Of a DNA stretch of 64,000 bases, positions 939 through 51,938 are shown piece after piece (positions within the stretch are counted from its first letter, which is position 1; each line of letters starts with the position of its first letter). The position numbers and the translations under genes were made by a program. The stretch covers positions 270,519 to 334,518 of the forward strand of contig NC_020053.1 of the NCBI RefSeq assembly GCF_000317145.1, in the 5' to 3' direction. This DNA comes from Chamaesiphon minutus PCC 6605 (GTDB taxonomy: Bacteria; Cyanobacteriota; Cyanobacteriia; Cyanobacteriales; Chamaesiphonaceae). The notes below the pieces were generated by a model. That model saw only the letters and a program-made list of their open reading frames with translations, was not told where the DNA came from and did not search any database.

Positions 939-966
939 AATTGTGGGACAACGTTGTCCCACAATT
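939..966. repeat. Perfect 28-bp palindrome, candidate parS (copy 1)
   Basis: The inverted repeat has the half-site AATTGTGGGACAAC followed by its exact reverse complement. It lies 17 bp beyond the stop of parB. The 22-bp core (half-site TGTGGGACAAC) recurs perfectly at 3080-3105, just upstream of parA, and at 51739-51768. No T-tract adjoins it in either direction and the half-site is identical in three separate places, which favours a protein-binding site over a terminator. The position around parAB suggests a centromere site bound by ParB (inference). Confidence 0.65.
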
Positions 967-3079: not shown

Positions 3080-3105
3080 CGTGTGGGACAACGTTGTCCC
3101 ACACG
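3080..3105. repeat. Perfect 26-bp palindrome, candidate parS/operator (copy 2)
   Basis: Half-site CGTGTGGGACAAC followed by its exact mirror. It shares a perfect 22-bp core with the copies at 939-966 and 51739-51768 while the outermost bases differ, yet remain self-complementary in each copy. It lies in the gap between the relaxase stop and the parA start, where the parAB promoter must be. Confidence 0.65.
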
Positions 3106-9552: not shown

Positions 9553-10023
9553 TTAACTTTTCCAAAGCCTGGGATCTAGCTCGAATGGTTGCGGAGATTC
9601 TATAGCTAGCCTTACAAAATCGGGATGTGACGGATTAATTAGATAGTTTAATTCCATTGGAATAACTACCGAAGGCACAGCTAAAATCGCTGTCGAACCC
9701 GAACGAAACCATCGATCGCCCATAGTTGCCAAAATAGCAGGTGCGGGAATATTCCGCCAATCTGGAGGCAACTGAGCCACTTCTAGATACTCGATCTCTA
9801 CTTCTGTCGGCACATCCACCCGAATGTAAGCCAACATCGTCGCCACATCTTCAACTTCCATGTGGACGAAGACTTCTAACGCTGCAAGTGAAAGCGTTCC
9901 CGAAGTGTAAACCATCCCCTGTCCGCGAGAATTCCAACGTCCGCCGACTCTTCTGGCACCTTCGCCGCTAAAAGCTGTATCTGCATACTTGCGCTTAGAA
10001 ATTCGCCACAGACTGAGACTCAA
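9553..10023 (-). CDS. RES-domain toxin (NAD+-degrading family)
   Basis: 156 residues. LWRISKRKYADTAFSGEGARRVGGRWNSRG near the N-terminus contains the Arg of the RES triad and the GGRWN signature. ALEVFVHME supplies the Glu, and a Ser-containing motif follows in the C-terminal half. RES toxins deplete NAD+ and are neutralised by a Xre/MbcA/ParS-type antitoxin, which is exactly the upstream gene, overlapping by 4 bp. The length and motif set look intact, so the module is probably functional as a plasmid-stabilising toxin-antitoxin system. Confidence 0.88.
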   Translation of the reverse strand: MSLSLWRISKRKYADTAFSGEGARRVGGRWNSRGQGMVYTSGTLSLAALEVFVHMEVEDVATMLAYIRVDVPTEVEIEYLEVAQLPPDWRNIPAPAILATMGDRWFRSGSTAILAVPSVVIPMELNYLINPSHPDFVRLAIESPQPFELDPRLWKS

Positions 10024-26557: not shown

Positions 26558-26583
26558 GAGCGGCAATCGCTTAATTGCCGCTC
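26558..26583 (-). terminator. Stem-loop between divergent genes
   Basis: AGCGGCAAT / ATTGCCGCT arms with a 6-8 nt loop; on the minus strand it is followed by CTATTTATTTTATC. No annotated gene would be terminated by it in that direction, so it may end antisense transcription from the repeat region, or be part of the leader of the 98-residue gene. Confidence 0.4.
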
Positions 26584-26616: not shown

Positions 26617-26913
26617 ATGAAAATTCGTGGCGATCGAGTACCCGGTCGAAGCGGAACTCTCTATCAACGCACCAAGAAAAAACAGTTACAGAACGGACAA
26701 ACCAAAGAATATCCCCTCGTCCCTGGGGATCGAGATCCCCACAATATCGAGCATTGGTTTTGGCAACTAACATACAAGGAGAAGCAAGCAGATGGAAAAT
26801 ATAAATCCCGCACCGTCTCTGTTGCACCGGAACAGGTAGCAGCGGTTAAGGTCTTAATTGCCGGAAATGCACAGCTAGAGCTGATTATAAGTTATTTGCG
26901 TGGTTCCACGTAA
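26617..26913 (+). CDS. Small basic protein whose stop codon lies in the flanking palindrome
   Basis: 98 residues. It begins MKIRGDRVPGRSGTLYQRTKKKQLQNG and has a WFWQLTYKEKQADGKYKSRTVSV segment that resembles small cyanobacterial nucleic-acid-associated proteins with a Tyr/Trp-rich strand followed by KSR. The C-terminal helix (VKVLIAGNAQLELIISYLRGST) ends exactly in the first 22-bp palindrome: the last residues GST and the TAA are read from the half-site GTTCCACGTAA. Decayed copies of the same C-terminus recur in the repeat blocks on both sides of the BREX island, so this gene appears to belong to the repeat unit. No function is assigned. Confidence 0.6.
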   Translation: MKIRGDRVPGRSGTLYQRTKKKQLQNGQTKEYPLVPGDRDPHNIEHWFWQLTYKEKQADGKYKSRTVSVAPEQVAAVKVLIAGNAQLELIISYLRGST

Positions 26914-27202
26914 TTACGTGGAACTAAATAAAAGCTTTAAATCCTTACTCAGCAACAATTATAGTCTTCTCATATCCGATCTAGTGCTGGCTATTCCTAG
27001 AGTAGGATTACAACAAAAGTACTTTTGAATAACGGTTTTAGCTTATGCGTACAGTTCCACGTAATTACGTGGAACTGAATCGACAAATAAACTACCAGCA
27101 CACTGGGGATAGGTGGCAACTGTAAAAGAATTAATCGCCAGAAACCTACAGTCAGACACAATCTTGGGTTATTTGCATGGTTCCACGTAATTACGTGGAA
27201 CC
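26903..27202. repeat. Direct repeat block A bounding the BREX island, with three 22-bp palindromes
   Basis: Three identical palindromes (half-site GTTCCACGTAA plus its mirror) lie at 26903-26924, 27054-27075 and 27180-27201. The sequence between them (AATCCTTACTCAG, ATAGTCTT, CATATCCGATC, AGTGCTGGCTA, AAACTACCAGCA, GAATTAATCGCCAGAAACCT) recurs in the same order and orientation in block B at 48504-48836. The first spacing is 151 bp in both blocks. The region 27203-27463 beyond it is non-coding and holds a faint further copy of the inter-palindrome sequence. Blocks A and B enclose all BREX genes. Confidence 0.85.
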
Positions 27203-35488: not shown

Positions 35489-35544
35489 CTCTGAAATTTA
35501 GAGTAGGGGCAATTCATGAATTGCCCCTACTCTAAATTTCAGAG
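35489..35544. repeat. 56-bp perfect palindrome between convergent genes
   Basis: Two exact 28-bp halves beginning CTCTGAAATTTAGAGTAGGG and meeting at AATTCATGAATT. The inner part (GTAGGGGCAATTCATGAATT) is a widespread cyanobacterial repeat. It lies 8 bp after the Xre gene and 37 bp before the end of pglX, and would serve as a hairpin terminator in both directions. Confidence 0.7.
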
Positions 35545-39711: not shown

Positions 39712-41070
39712 TTTTCGCTTTTACTCCGACTCAGATCAACCGAATACGAATATTGGACTTACCATCAAGCTGAGATAATAAGCGATCGCGGAGTTGGTTG
39801 ACTAGCACCTCCACCTCCTCTGGCGAACTGACTTCCCGCCCACTTAACTCGATCGCAATCGTCATCACCTGTTTGTCGGTGGCTTGTGACAGGGCATCGT
39901 CCAGATAACTATTCGCCTCTTCCTCCGCCATGTTTAGCCTCAACACTGCCGAATCTTTTAGCTCCAGTAATTGGGGATAAAGTGCTTCAGCAGTCGTATC
40001 GTAGGTTGCGTCCGTCACCGGACGAAGTACATAGGTCGCCTTGTCTGGGCTGAGTCGGGCATAGCCAGACCGCTGCTTCACCTTGTGGCGAATCGCTTCT
40101 GCCTGCTGTTCCTGCTTCTCCAATAGCGATCGCCGGACGATCGTATAGTGAGACTCGATTGTCTGCAATTGCGGCTCCAGACGTGCAATATCGCGCCACG
40201 GTCGATCGATCGCCAGTTGTTCCGCTACCGCTGCAATCTCGGCTTGCACCTCAGTCGCCGATCCTACTTGTTCGAGTTGGGCAACCTGATGCTGCTGAAC
40301 CGACCCCGCCCGCGATACTGCGGCGATTGCGTCATCAGTCAGATCGGTCTCTAGAATGCCTAATTGTTGTATCCCATCGCGTAAAACATCGAGATTTCGC
40401 TTCACTTCTAGCAGCGTAGGTTCGACTTGGCGGGATTTGAGACACTTTTCTAATGCCGATTGCAACTTGGCTAAATTAGTAGGTAAATCTAACCGATTGG
40501 GTAGCTTATTGTAACGGTGCTCCAATTCTCGCAACCGCCTGACTTGATTGGGGAACTGCTTAAATACCGCATCGGCGATCGCATCATCTTCACGATCGAG
40601 ATCGATACCCAGGGCATCTTTGAATAACGTACAAATGGCAATCCGATCGCGGGGACTAATGCCGCGATCGCTCGGCGGTAGAATGTCAGCGCGTTTGAAA
40701 TCTCGATCCTTCGTAAATAAATCCATCACCCCAGGATCGCGAATCGACGTGACACTAGTACCATCTTCGAGCCGAATTTGAATTTTACTCGCCCGAAATA
40801 AACCAGCCAGACAAGCCTTCACCACATCCGGCGCGTAACCATAAGGTGGCCCGCCAAAAAAGTTCAACAACACTTGCCCAGAGACCCCATTTTCAGCCAA
40901 GACATACTCACCGATCCGTGCGGGCACCTCTCCGGCACAGGTCGGGTTATACTTGCCAGCATCTAGCTCCAGGATGCCTAGCCCATCCTGCATAAATTTA
41001 GTCGAAGGCCCGATTAAATCCTTTTCTAGTAGCTGCTTCAGTTCGGATGGGATAATCGCCACATCAAAAT

Positions 41071-42511
41071 CAATAGTCCGGACACCTTTTGAAAAGAAAA
41101 ATGATCGATCGATCCAAAAAAAGCAATTCATCGCTTAAAGTACAAGTAGAACCCAAGTACCAGATGAATTGCCCTATGGATATTGTACAGAACCTACTTG
41201 CCAAAGTGGGTAATTTAGCAAACCGCAACGCCAGTTCTTAGCCAGTATATTTGTGACGTTGTTTGTGGTATGCGGCAAGGCAAACTTTACTAATCTCAGT
41301 CGTTATGGGCAGTATAGCGAACGAACATACCGTCGTCAGTACAAAAAAACATTCGATTTCATTCCCTTCCACGCGCAGACAATTGCAGCAGCAATTGAAC
41401 CAAATTGAGAGCAGATCGCAGCGATTGATTGCTCATTTATCAGCAAGAGTGGAAAACAGACATGGGGAGTAGATAATTTCTATAACGGTAGTATCAGCAA
41501 GTCTCAAAAAGGGTTAGAAATTTCGGTGATTGCAGTGGTGGATGTATTAGCCCATCAAGGTTACACTCTCTCAGTACAACAAACTGCAAAAACCGAGCGT
41601 CAACCCATCCCCGACGCGAAACCAACGGCGAAGAAGAAGCGTAAATCGAAGTCGAAATCGAAGTCGAAATCGAAGTCGAAATCTAAATCTAAATCGAAAG
41701 CGAAAACAGAACCAGTGATTTCTGAGCGAGTCAAAGGCTATCTGAAACAACTGAAAATAGCTCGCTCCCATTTGCCTGCGGTAGTAAAATATTTAACCGC
41801 AGACAGCTTTTACAGTAAGAAATCTGTTGTTGATGGGGTGATTGAGCTAGACCTTCATTTGATTAGCAAATTGCGGATTGATGCGGATCTACGATACTGC
41901 TACACTGGCAAGCAAAAGCCCAAAGGTGCGCCGCGTAAGTATGATGGCAAGGTGAATTTGAGTGATTTGTCCCGACTGGAATTCGGTGGTGAGTTAGCTA
42001 ATGGCACTAAATTGTATAGCCAAGTGGTTTGGCATGTTTCACTTAAACGTAAAATTCGCATCGTTTACTTGGTTGACCAACGTCATCCCGAGAAGCAGCG
42101 AGTAGCTTTGCTCTTTTCTACCGACACGATGATTAATCCCATCAGTCTGTACGAGTACTACAAATCTCGGTTTCAAATCGAATTCATCTTTCGTGATGCC
42201 AAACAATTTACTGGGCTTTGCGACTGTCAATCCCGCCACCAACAATCCCTGGATTTTCATTTCAATGCATCCTTGGCAGCTCTCAATATTGCCAAGCTTG
42301 AACAGCAAAAAACTCAGTCGGATACTGGGGAAGATTCACAGCCGCAATCTTTTTCAATGGCAACTTACAAGCGGCTAGCTCTCAATGGACATCTACTTGA
42401 GCGGTTTATTTCCATGTTAGAACTTGACCCGACTTTGATTAAATCCCATCCTAACTACGATAGTCTTCTCCACTATGGCTCTCTAGCTCCATAAATCTGT
42501 CCGGACTATTG
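41071..42511. mobile_element. Insertion sequence in brxC, 1441 bp, perfect 14-bp inverted repeats
   Basis: The left end CAATAGTCCGGACA (41071-41084) and right end TGTCCGGACTATTG (42498-42511) are exact inverted complements. AAAAT lies directly outside both (41066-41070 and 42512-42516), a 5-bp target duplication. The transposase inside is damaged. Precise removal restores the brxC reading frame. Confidence 0.88.
41164..42494 (+). pseudogene. DDE transposase of the brxC insertion, frameshifted
   Basis: The 5' end (41164) reads MDIVQNLLAKVGNLANRN and then stops; the continuation FLASIFVTLFVVCGKANF is in a different frame. A TGA at 41406 interrupts that frame before EQIAAIDCSFISKSGKQTWG, which holds the first catalytic Asp. 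Downstream the frame runs to 42494 with KYLTADSFYSKKSVVD (second Asp) and YYKSRFQIEFIFRDAKQFTGL (Glu). A (Lys-Ser)n stretch of about 20 residues near 41640-41700 is encoded by a hexanucleotide repeat. IS family not named; the element is probably immobile by itself. Confidence 0.75.
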
Positions 42512-43176
42512 AAAATAGCGATCGAACAGTTCGGGTAGGATACTTTCTCCCACCTTTTCTAACACCACTGCAAAGCCATTGCCGAAATTCTTCACCTCCA
42601 TCTGACGACCTCGGAAATAGAGCGCACCATCTAGAAACGCGCGGACAACGCCATCTTTAACTTTTGTTTCCAAGCCTTCACACCGACTCTGCTCGTCAAA
42701 CAGCATCCGTTCTTTACCGATCGAGATCGACGCACTCCGACCTTGATACTTGTTGACAATATGCCGCGACCTTGCCAAGTCTCGCAGCAAGCTATCCAAA
42801 TCATCTAATTTCCCGACCACCCAAATCAACCGATCTCTGAAGTTTGGCGTATCACTGGTCTGAATCCAGGTTGCGGCGGTTTTCTCCTCCTGGGTTTTGA
42901 GATATTGAAAATCGATCGAAATCGTCGCCAGTTCGTTCGGGACTTGCAATCGATCGGTTTGCCGCTGTCGCCCATCGCTGTAATAAGCAGCCCACCGAAA
43001 CTTCTTCCCTTTGTAGCCTGGATTTGCCGCCCCGCCCAGTAAATCCTTCAACTTGTCGGCAACGATCGCGCTCGATTCGTTAGGAATAACCTGAGTTCGA
43101 TGAGGCTGTGCCTCATCATCAAATCAAGTCTCTGACTGTGCTTGAGTCATAAACATCAATTATTAAAATGAGATAT

Positions 43177-43223
43177 TTCCAAGTCATTATCAATAAGCTT
43201 TGATTATTGATAATGACTTGGAA
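43177..43223. repeat. 20-bp-arm hairpin beside the IS982-type transposase
   Basis: Perfect inverted arms beginning TTCCAAGTCATTATCAATAA (43177-43196) and ending 43204-43223, 7-nt loop. AT-rich, no coding sequence. Possibly a terminator for brxC-side transcripts or part of the element end. Confidence 0.6.
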
Positions 43224-43382
43224 GTAAAACGTCGATCGATAATTACAAATAATTAACAATTAATAAGTTATTAAAAGTTCTGAGGAGCGGTCGGCGAATA
43301 AAAGTACAAATAGCATTGCAACCCTTATGTATAATCTCTGATTCTGGTTAAATTAATATATATATTAGAAAACCACACTTAG

Positions 43383-44274
43383 ATGATGGACTTAACCGAA
43401 CTATTTTGTGAAATAGATGATTTCTGCCAAGATTGGCTGGCAACTTTTTCATCAATATCTTTCCCTGCCAACGGTAATAGCTTACCAAAACGCTGCGGCC
43501 TATCACTGAGCGAGGTCATGACTATTTCTATTCATTTCCATCAGTCAAGCTATCGAACATTTAAGGATTATTACCTCAAAAATGTTTGTCAAAACTTAAC
43601 TGATTATTTTCCAAAGTTGGTTAGTTACAATAGAATGGTGGAGTTGATGCCAAATGTTTTAATAGCTTGCCTTTATTATCTCAACTCTCGTCAAGGTAAG
43701 GTGACTGGAATTAGTTTCGTGGATAGCACGGCTATTCCAGTTTGTCACCCAAAAAGAATTAAAAGAAATAAGGTTTTCAAAGAAACTGCCAAGCTGAGTA
43801 AGAGTTCTATGGGATGGTACTTTGGATTCAAGCTTCATTTAATTATTAATGATTGCGGAGAGATATTAAGCTGCAAAAATCACACCTGGCAATGTCGATG
43901 ACCGCACACATTTGCCATCAATGACACAGGGAATATCAGGAAAAATATTTGGAGACAAAGGATATATTAAGAAAGAACTATTTGAAGAATTATTAAATAA
44001 AGGATTGCAGCTAATTACGCCACTAAAATCTAATATGAAAAACAAGCTCATCTTGATGGATGACAAAATATCACTTCGGAAACGCTCGCTGATTGAAACG
44101 GTAAATGACCAGTTAAAAAATATTTGTTATTTAGTCCATTCTCGCCATCGGAGCTTGCATAATTTCATGCTAAATCTGATTACAGCATTAATTGCTTATA
44201 CTCATCAACCTAAAAAGCCGAGTTTGAAGCTAGATGAGCCTGCTCAAAACTTCTTTAGTATTGTTCCTATTTAG
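43383..44274 (+). pseudogene. IS982-family transposase, one-base frameshift
   Basis: The first part (43383-43901) begins MMDLTELFCEIDDFC, typical of IS982, with GISFVDSTAIPVCH giving the first Asp. At 43875-43879 there are five As where four would keep the frame (CKITPGNVDDRTH). The frame resumes to 44274 with GDKGYIKK (second Asp) and RSLIETVNDQLKN (Glu). A single extra A explains everything, so it is either a recent inactivating slip or a programmed frameshift on an A-run. I favour inactivation. Confidence 0.75.
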
Positions 44275-46152
44275 CCGATTATTTATTTATTAACTTAACT
44301 CAATATTTTCAATCATTAATCATCTTAATGATGGGTTTTATCGTGCCAAAATTTACATAAAATTTGCTATTAAGCTGAACATGTTGTCACATCTGAGTTC
44401 GATGAGGCTATGCCTCATCGAACTCAGGTGAATAATACTGTAACTATCCCGTTCTCGCGCCCATTCCTGACCTGCCGAGCTTTGGAGCTTATAGCCCGTC
44501 TTCTCTGAATAAGACAATAGATTCAGCTCTCGCAGTTGCTCCAACGCCTGGGAAATCCGCCCCTCTTGATTGCCCTGTCCCAACCGCTCGTAGAGACATT
44601 GACTCACCAGTGCCACCGTTGTCGGCTCTTGTTCTTGAATTAGCTCCAGCAACGAGACAATCTTCGCCACCCGCGCCAAGAGCGCATCCTGCAATACTTC
44701 ATCCTGACCAAATATCCGCGTCAGGGTGGTTTGCATATCATTGTCCAGCGATGACTGCTGTACCTCGAAAATGTCTTCGAGGGTAATCAAATTTCCCAAA
44801 GGTCTTGCGCCTAGCTTTCGCTCGCGAAACAGGTCGCCTAAAAGCTGCAACAGCCCGCGAATCGCATGATCGTCACCCTTGGCTCGACTCGATCGTAAGC
44901 GTAAATTCGACGTAATTTGCATCAGCAGATCGACATATCCTGGCAGCATGGGATAGACTTCCACGAAATCTTCTTCGGAAATCGTCTGACACTGATATCC
45001 ATACAGCTTGAGATCGCTCCGATACTGCTGAAATATCTCCCTCAGTGCCCCTTCTTGCGTCGGCAATTTCTTGAGTAAGCGTTTATGCACCACATCCCGA
45101 ATATTCGTCGGTGCCAAATGCACCCGCAACTTAGGCGGGAATCGATCCTTGAGCTTACCGATACTGCTTTCGTCGTCGCTATCCTCTAACTTCTGCTGAC
45201 CCGTTGCCAACAGCCAAACTTGCCCCTTGAGCTTCTGCCCCAAAGCCGAGACAAAAGACTGAAGCTTCAACATCCGCGTGTTGTTTTGATAGATGTATTG
45301 ACTGACTTCATCGACTACCACAAACAACGTTTTACCCGCAGCCCGCAACCGCAGCATTTCGGAGATCGCTTTAATCGTTTCATCGACCGAAGATCCTTCA
45401 CCCGTATTCGCCCCCGCACGGCTCTCAAACCAACTCAACGGATCGGTATACCGACTCGGATTCATCGCGTGCATCACCTGAGAAAATTCTTCCTCAGCCA
45501 TCCGACTATCTTTCGCTTCAGCCCAAGCCCGACCGAGCAGCCGCTGGGCACTCGCTTCAAACTCCGGCCACAGACCTTCAAGTTCGAGGTTTAACTCGTA
45601 ATCTGCCACATAATTACTGGTACTGCAATAGCCCAGCCGTTTCTGGATTTCCCGCTTCACGGCTGCATGAATCTGTTCGTCATCCCGTGCCACCGCTCCA
45701 ATATCAAAGATGACGGCGATCGGTTGTACCAGACTCCGAACCTTCGTCCAAGCCGCCCTAAATTCATTGGATTTAGGCGATTCATCCCGTTTAAGAAAAA
45801 CTTCAGCGATCTCCTGTCCATCGGGCAAAATTAAGCCATCTAGAGCTAATCCCAACAGTTTGGCAAAGCTAGATTTCCCCGAACCGTAAAATCCAGAAAT
45901 CCATGAGGCGGGTAATTCTACCCCGCCAGTTTTTTGCAGTTCCTCGGCTAGACTGCTCAACAATTTGACAAACTGCTCGTGAATTCCAATCTTGGAGCGG
46001 GGATCGTTTTCAGGATATCCACCCGTGACTATGTACTCGGAAACTTCCGCCGCTACCTTGGCCGGATCTTGCTCATGGAAGTAAATGACTGGAGCGATAT
46101 CGCGCGTCACATCATTGGCAAATACATCCTTAATCTGCATCGAAGTTCTCCA

Positions 46153-48503: not shown

Positions 48504-48836
48504 GTTCCACGTAATTACGTGGAACTAAACATTGGCTTTAAATCCTTACTCAGTAAGAATTATAGTCTTAGCATATCCGATCGAGTGCTGGCTACTCTTG
48601 AAAGAGAATTTCGGTGAAAGTGTTGTTTGTCAATAGTTTTAGCTCATTTAAACAGTTCCACGTAATTACGTGGAACTAAATCAGCAGATAAACTACCAGC
48701 ATCTTCAGGAAATACTAGCGATAGTTGGCACCAGTCAAAAGTCAGTCAAAAGTCAAAGAAAGAATTAATCGCCAGAAACCTGTATTCAGAAGCAATTTCA
48801 GGTTATTTGGATAGTTCCACGTAATTACGTGGAACT
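48504..48836. repeat. Direct repeat block B bounding the BREX island, with three 22-bp palindromes
   Basis: Palindromes at 48504-48525, 48655-48676 and 48814-48835, all identical to those of block A. Spacings are 151 and 159 bp; the second is longer than in A because of a GTCAAAA-type duplication near 48735-48755. Before the third palindrome the minus of frameshifts leaves a readable ghost, KELIARNLYSEAISGYL then DSST and stop, matching the end of the 98-residue gene at 26617-26913. Confidence 0.85.
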
Positions 48837-48915: not shown

Positions 48916-49704
48916 TTAGCGATCTTCCATAATCTTGGGATCGAGCACGATCGCCCGCTCGTAGTCGTTCGCGGCTCCCAGCAGGTCATTTAAAAAATCC
49001 CGCTTGAGCAGACTCCGCACGAAATAAGCAGATGCCAGATGAGGATCGAGATCGATGGCTCGGTCATAATCAGCCAACGCCCCGACAGGATCGCCAAGTT
49101 CCCGATGCTTGAGCGTACCGCGATTATAATACGCCTCGGACAAGTTGGGATCGAGTGAGATCGCCCGATCGTAATCGGCTAAGGCACCAGCAATATCCAT
49201 CAGTTTGACATTTTTTAGCAGTCCGCGACAGTTATATGCAGCCGCAAAATTCGGGTCGATCTCGATCGCCAGATCGAAATCCGTCAAAGCATACTCGATA
49301 TCCCCAAGTTCGGCATATTTAATCAACCCACGAGTGTTATACACCGAGGCATCGCGGGGGTTAAGGACGATCGACAGATTGAGATCGGCTAGGGCACCTG
49401 GAATATCGCCTAACTGCTGGTACTTCAGTAACCCACGATTGGCATAGGCGATCGCATAATCGGGGTCGCAGCGCACGGCTGAGTCAAAATCGACCAGCGC
49501 ACCCTGAATATCTCGCAATTTTGCATACCTAAACGAGCCGCGATAGTTATAGGCTCTGGCATAGCCAGGAGCTTGGCGCACGGCTCGATCGTAAGCCGCT
49601 AAAGCACCTCGATCGTTCCCGATTTGAGATTGTCGATTACCGATCGAAATATAGTTATCGGCGGTGATGATGAGATCGCCATGTTTGGGTAATTTATCTG
49701 ACAT
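48916..49704 (-). CDS. Tetratricopeptide-repeat protein
   Basis: 262 residues made of about seven 34-residue TPR units, each with the W/Y-G-Y-A-P pattern: ALADYDRAISLDPNLSEAYYNRGTLKHRELGD and close variants. Such repeats build a protein-binding superhelix. There is no signal peptide or catalytic domain. It lies outside repeat block B and points toward it. Its partner is unknown. Confidence 0.85.
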   Translation of the reverse strand: MSDKLPKHGDLIITADNYISIGNRQSQIGNDRGALAAYDRAVRQAPGYARAYNYRGSFRYAKLRDIQGALVDFDSAVRCDPDYAIAYANRGLLKYQQLGDIPGALADLNLSIVLNPRDASVYNTRGLIKYAELGDIEYALTDFDLAIEIDPNFAAAYNCRGLLKNVKLMDIAGALADYDRAISLDPNLSEAYYNRGTLKHRELGDPVGALADYDRAIDLDPHLASAYFVRSLLKRDFLNDLLGAANDYERAIVLDPKIMEDR

Positions 49705-51549: not shown

Positions 51550-51938
51550 ACTCAAACCATATATACTTTTCATTTAAATATGATGAGACAACAGCTATAC
51601 TTGATATCATCAAATCATTTAAAATGACAGAAGTTTTAGGTTGGTAAAAATGGAGTTTCCAGTCTTATTAAAACTTCCATCACTATGAACGAGGAGTTGT
51701 TTTTATGGCACCAGTGGTAAAGCTAGTATAGTCTAGCCAAGTTGTGGGACAACGTTGTCCCACAACTTGTCGATCTGCTAAATCGTAGATCGGTGTTTAG
51801 CTCTCATCTCAAGTCAAAGATCGATTTAAGTCTACAACTCGAAGAGGATCGACAATCGAGATCGAGTAATTTGACTCAAGGCTTAATCGCAAGTCAAGTG
51901 TTTAGATAGGACTTATTTACCCACCCGCTACACGCAAG
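51550..51938. other. Non-coding region holding the third parS-like palindrome
   Basis: 389 bp between the IS605 remnant and the conjugation cluster. Apart from the 30-bp palindrome at 51739-51768, I see only short frames. A small ATG downstream of GAGGAG near 51690-51705 begins an 8-codon frame that is unlikely to be meaningful. The promoter for the rightward cluster probably lies after the palindrome. Confidence 0.5.
51739..51768. repeat. Perfect 30-bp palindrome, candidate parS (copy 3)
   Basis: Half-site AAGTTGTGGGACAAC and its mirror, sharing the core of the copies at 939-966 and 3080-3105. It is 48 kb away from parAB in this window, upstream of the conjugation cluster. Either ParB acts here too (as a second centromere site or regulator), or the replicon is circular and the sites lie closer. 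Confidence 0.6.

Follow-up and report, generated by a model that had tools for sequence, protein, structure and literature searches.

The question raised by this locus is why a perfect palindrome overlaps the last codons and stop codon of a small gene, and recurs in two blocks 21.6 kb apart together with decayed copies of the end of that gene. The window analysed here, a 64,000-nucleotide stretch of Chamaesiphon minutus PCC 6605, belongs to a 446,651-bp plasmid-like contig with partition-like, relaxase-like and transfer-like genes (named by reading); no similar record was found in the plasmid collection, from which records of this genome may have been excluded. The small gene (26617–26913, + strand; translation MKIRG...SYLRGST-stop) encodes a basic protein of 98 residues (pI 9.9) and, as the earlier note had claimed, ends GST-stop inside the first palindrome (GTTCCACGTAATTACGTGGAAC, 26903–26924), the core of which supplies the stop codon itself (TAA, 26911–26913; GTTCCAC-G(TAA)TTAC-GTGGAAC). 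Six exact copies of this 22-bp palindrome are present in the window, with none expected from 100 shuffles, and the whole 6.76-Mb genome contains no others (reversed-sequence control, 0). Three adjoin the small gene (26903–26924, 27054–27075 and 27180–27201) and three form a far block (48504–48525, lying 281 bp upstream of brxE, 48655–48676 and 48814–48835); the two blocks are direct repeats, homologous across ~346 bp (73%). A different palindrome, TGTGGGACAACGTTGTCCCACA, has three copies in the window (939–966, 3080–3105 and 51738–51769), two of which adjoin parA/parB-like genes, and is a candidate centromere site.

When read back from the TAA of the core, all five window palindromes that do not overlap the gene are preceded by remnants of its C-terminus. 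Two of these ghosts are long and lie in frame before the third palindrome of each block, KELIARNLQSDTILGYLHGST-stop at 27125–27190 (+) and KELIARNLYSEAISGYLDSST-stop at 48759–48824 (+), just as had been reported, and three are short (VLAYAYSST, before the palindrome at 27054, KVLAYLFSST and IVLAHLNSST). The decayed copies stand at a fixed distance upstream of the palindromes. An EM motif search placed a 14-nt gene-end motif at one and the same distance before many palindromes, both coding and non-coding, with a log-likelihood of 96 compared to at most 51 in 12 shuffled sets, the controls being single-base shuffles and the gene-borne copies being mutually homologous, which raises the score. The previous description of the blocks as arrays of truncated gene copies was correct in that the ghosts are real, but a more accurate account is that one composite, made up of gene end, palindrome and ~150 bp, is repeated.

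The ghosts decay while the palindrome stays perfect. Between the window and genome G006 the small gene differs at 18, 24 and 52 first, second and third codon positions (pS 0.70, pN 0.21; dN 0.24, dS 1.97), and the dN/dS of ~0.12 indicates strong purifying selection on the protein. The corresponding comparison of the two long ghosts gives 4, 1 and 5 differences, a far weaker bias from few sites. The protein is selected in the intact gene, and the ghosts display no sign of protein selection; the proposal that it is DNA, not protein, that is selected thus holds for the palindrome and the ghosts and fails for the gene. Upstream, an inverted repeat in the likely 5' leader of the gene (GAGCGGCAAT...ATTGCCGCTC, 26558–26583, +) has counterparts of different sequence at the equivalent position in relatives, and we infer that it forms a leader hairpin.

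Stand-alone full-length relatives were found almost only in Chamaesiphon among the genomes searched. Every full relative found in this genus has its stop codon within or beside a palindrome with the core GTAATTAC (GTAAWTTAC in one subgroup), and a relative sharing the C-terminus and lacking the palindrome, the case named in advance as contrary to the DNA-level reading, was not found among them. In nearly every relative a second palindrome of the same type follows ~117–158 bp downstream. The types include CCAC, CCAT or CCAA before GTAATTAC, each with the matching arm after it, as well as TTTTCTAAA-GTAATTAC-TTTAGAAAA, TTTTAGGGT-GTAATTAC-ACCCTAAAA and TTAGGATGTAA-W-TTACATCCTAA. The arms differ between relatives, with both sides changing jointly (CAC/GTG, CAT/ATG, CAA/TTG). 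One arm of the CCA types lies in coding sequence, and the last residue of the protein changes along with it (T, M or K); the other types start at or past the stop codon. Since both arms change together even though one encodes the last residue, the DNA palindrome is itself constrained; the earlier statement that it is kept as the ghosts drift is likewise supported.

Outside Chamaesiphon a related domain is found at the C-terminal end of longer proteins of cyanobacteria, and those relatives whose flanks were scanned have neither the palindrome nor a GST/SSK end. The exact CAC core was present in 0 of 147 other genomes, and none of the other types was found in the few non-Chamaesiphon genomes searched. 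There are ~21 palindrome copies per genome, nearly all of them beside the small gene or beside its cargo; we rejected the idea of a large family of dispersed repeats, as 174 occurrences of GTAATTAC compared to 150 in the reversed control leave an excess that fits the ~21 known sites. Our literature searches found no description of this palindrome. A GTAATTA-core palindrome with changed arms also lies ~22 nt past the stop codon of another gene family (160–168 aa), without the small gene, at three sites in two Chamaesiphon genomes (L049, C1:1457730; L088, G002:C267; and C3:40115).

Protein and palindrome types correspond. At position 70 the protein has A in the CAC type, K in the CAT type and R in the CAA type, and this residue directly precedes helix 71–82 of an AlphaFold model (mostly confident, mean pLDDT 84) that consists of a beta-rich domain followed by two C-terminal helices; this tracking of the arm by residue 70 is suggestive, although with three types and few independent changes it may reflect shared ancestry. 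Neither the protein nor the region has a significant family in Pfam, PHROGs, PDB sequences or Rfam. The top fold matches are the nucleic-acid-binding proteins Pur-alpha and PC4, and these are not significant (best Foldseek E 0.15, for Pur-alpha; VIA Z 3.0 or less). With its pI and the correlation of residue 70 with the arms as indirect indications, the small basic protein probably binds DNA.

Between the two window blocks lies a 21-kb BREX locus (27464–48223, −) comprising BrxHI, BrxD, PglZ, PglX, a split BrxC, BrxB, BrxA and BrxE, with all eight genes matched by PADLOC profiles; we take the set BrxE, A, B, C, PglX, PglZ, D and HI to be BREX type 6. Transposase genes inserted into brxC (window 39731–46140) have left pieces of 595 and 466 aa, covering positions 1–569 and 764–1206 of the 1207 in the model, which makes the function of this BREX copy doubtful, and it is probably non-functional. 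Next to the far block is a TPR protein gene (48916–49704, −), homologues of which adjoin arrays elsewhere, recurring even though the cargo varies. A 56-bp perfect palindrome at 35489–35544, between an XRE-like gene and pglX, is probably a small mobile element.

Bracketing by palindromes of the same type is found in four loci, two of them orthologous, with three unrelated types of cargo. On the chromosome, CAT-type palindromes at C1:1814343/1814494 and 1836053 bracket an island encoding DrmD-like, type IIG, DruE-like and UvrD-like proteins, a mixture that led us to reject its classification as DISARM. The orthologous DrmD/DruE-like island in G006 is bracketed on both sides (676/836 and 18455/18625), and palindromes at 9974/10198 and 11890 enclose a photolyase-like gene of G003 (identified by reading). 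In all four, the cargo genes nearest the blocks point toward the small gene, and the first cargo gene has the far palindrome ~83–281 bp upstream. Direct repeats of the small gene's 3' end stand at both ends of the islands, with near/far homology over 346 bp in the window, 276 bp in G006 and 71 bp on the chromosome; similarity at the photolyase locus extends to 30 bp, little beyond the palindrome itself. Identity across two near/far pairs and one near/near ortholog pair peaks at palindrome 1, at +40 to +59 from its centre and at palindrome 2, and drops to ~50% at +80 to +99; the middle peak corresponds in the window to 26954–26973 (+), a stretch that reads AACAATTTGAGCTTAT in G006 and the chromosomal relatives. 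The pairing of palindrome and protein types, the bracketing of cargo operons and the symmetric extension of non-coding palindromes (see below) all go beyond the earlier note.

Small-gene homologues in G004 and G002 adjoin Druantia-like or GmrSD-like genes (the G002 gene being assigned by its likeness to that of G004), and some arrays of two or three palindromes bracket no cargo that could be recognised (C3:421 kb, C1:1656 kb, C1:1885 kb and G003a). No integrase or recombinase was recognised by reading the ORFs that the blocks enclose in the window or on C1, of which a part was also searched; a tyrosine recombinase is encoded immediately beyond the far palindrome of G003. Comparison of C3:42 kb with G003 did not yield a clean empty site: the TPR and recombinase flanks match at 80–86%, but divergence of the small-gene modules in between prevents their alignment as DNA, so the comparison is no proof of insertion. 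In two species (L075 and L084) the small-gene array is followed by a tyrosine recombinase gene, 86% identical in its DNA, and one of the two has a photolyase-like gene and an extra palindrome between array and recombinase. Three chromosomal small-gene copies are split at one codon (HWFW/W) by near-identical ~11.5 kb elements that carry a tyrosine-recombinase-like gene (L060, L064, L069 and L065: C1:1802553–1814350, 1885133–1896724, 2148488 and 1656764). The N-half and C-half of one such gene are now ~490 kb apart, which suggests rearrangement between copies of the element.

We propose, with a probability of roughly 0.4, that the small gene and its palindromes constitute a matched protein/site module, the 3' end of which serves exchangeable cargo as its boundary or attachment region. 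The module itself, the co-variation of its arms, the bracketing of different cargo and the decay of the ghosts beside intact palindromes are observed directly. The small basic protein, probably DNA-binding, would recognise its own palindromic cis-sites, and the site would be a composite of the gene's 3' end, the palindrome, the conserved stretch ~50 bp on and the second palindrome ~150 bp on. The module is located in plasmid-like regions of Chamaesiphon, some of them integrated, and its copies have diverged into different protein/palindrome types; cargo operons would have been inserted and exchanged at the composite, presumably by recombination at the array, whether site-specific or general. 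Recombination between two copies of the site would leave the intact gene at the 3' side of the cargo and only the last 60–80 bp of the gene, a ghost, at its promoter side; the ghosts would thus be displaced site copies. Against this proposal, no recombinase was recognised inside the BREX or DrmD/DruE-like island, arrays without cargo exist, and symmetric extension of the palindromes is not required for either protein binding or attachment.

The foremost rival is that the palindromes are operators or roadblocks, at which the small protein would silence or insulate adjacent operons in the manner of mycobacteriophage stoperators, with types akin to immunity groups. We consider this doubtful, although the locations of the sites, at 3' ends, in the gaps of convergent gene pairs and ~80–315 bp upstream of operons, would suit it, site and protein types are paired, and stoperator repressors likewise diversify with their sites (PMC6550527, PMC9283540). 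Operators have no need of long perfect palindromes with arbitrary extension, the distance from the far block to the first cargo gene is variable (~83 to 281 bp), and the ghosts and direct repeats of 276–350 bp are left unexplained. A more speculative extension of our own proposal, which we regard as quite unlikely, is a cargo-capture platform free of any cassette integrase, in which a fast-diversifying protein would recognise palindromic and possibly hairpin sites, its own gene end included, to insert, hold or exchange defence operons.

The next rival is a hairpin or REP-like function, in which the palindromes would act as RNA or single-stranded DNA hairpins at transcript 3' ends (as REP-like elements, stabilisers or terminators), spread by tandem duplication of the small gene's 3' end. 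Non-coding copies are perfect over up to 58 bp with unrelated outer arms, having a mean of 4.25 extra pairs compared to ~0.37 by chance, while gene-overlapping copies have 0–2; this extension keeps a hairpin role in consideration, as do the persistence of the hairpin in the odd-centred GTAAWTTAC version of G004 and G002 and the presence of palindromes after a different gene (~160 aa) in two Chamaesiphon genomes. However, extension may reflect either selection for hairpin stability or mere template-switch mutation of quasipalindromes during replication, by which imperfect arms become perfect (PMC7202029). Intrinsic terminators (a G+C-rich hairpin plus T run) were rejected, as five of the six window palindromes are not terminator-like; most copies lack a U-tract, and one type is nearly all A/T. 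Furthermore the chromosomal and G006 far blocks sit in divergent promoter regions, and ~21 copies per genome concentrated near the small gene or cargo are unlike dispersed REPs; we judge this explanation rather unlikely. Least probable is that these are neutral tandem duplications of a gene end, homogenised by gene conversion, among which defence cargo landed by chance. The ghosts have indeed drifted without clear protein constraint and the repeats are most alike within one locus, but the palindromes are perfect where their flanks fall to 50–75% identity, the conservation profile recurs between comparisons, and orientation and bracketing are repeated for three unrelated cargo types.

How defence islands gather and swap on plasmids is an open question. 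A boundary of the kind proposed would be legible in the sequence as a protein type matched to a palindrome type plus a ghost, so that insertions could be recognised and placed in order, and the many natural protein/site pairs make the rules of recognition testable.

Genomic islands are known to integrate at gene 3' ends (of the tRNA, dusA and prfC type), and the Chamaesiphon loci resemble them in having an intact gene at one end, a displaced 3'-end copy in direct orientation at the other and defence cargo between. They differ in that no integrase was recognised in either of the two large defence islands, the repeat spans up to 350 bp and contains two or three perfect palindromes, and the target is a small plasmid-borne gene with a site type that varies with the protein. 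REP elements with a RAYT gene also have a gene flanked by palindromic units, mostly at 3' ends, but membership was rejected, since no HUH/Y1 transposase motif was seen in the small-protein alignment (nor any Pfam match) and there are only ~21 palindromes per genome. Integron attC sites (PMC2727003) are likewise palindromes that form hairpins; they lie at the 3' ends of genes, vary in their arms and delimit exchangeable blocks of genes. They are imperfect, whereas the palindromes here are perfect and the cargo consists of operons of up to 21 kb. An integron cassette was rejected, as no integrase was found among the island ORFs by reading and the arms are GTTCCA...TGGAAC, not RYYYAAC...GTTRRRY. 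BrxR/CapW (PMC9122589, PMC9122601) provide a precedent for a putative DNA-binding protein gene adjoining defence systems, although no WYL or HTH domain was found in the small protein and its gene is oriented toward the operon from the operon's 3' side. Cluster A mycobacteriophages (PMC6550527 and PMC9283540, cited above) also pair a regulator-like protein, diversified in its specificity, with several sites cognate to it; their stoperators are short, asymmetric and spread across the phage genome, whereas the Chamaesiphon sites are perfect palindromes in blocks of one to three beside the small gene and its cargo.
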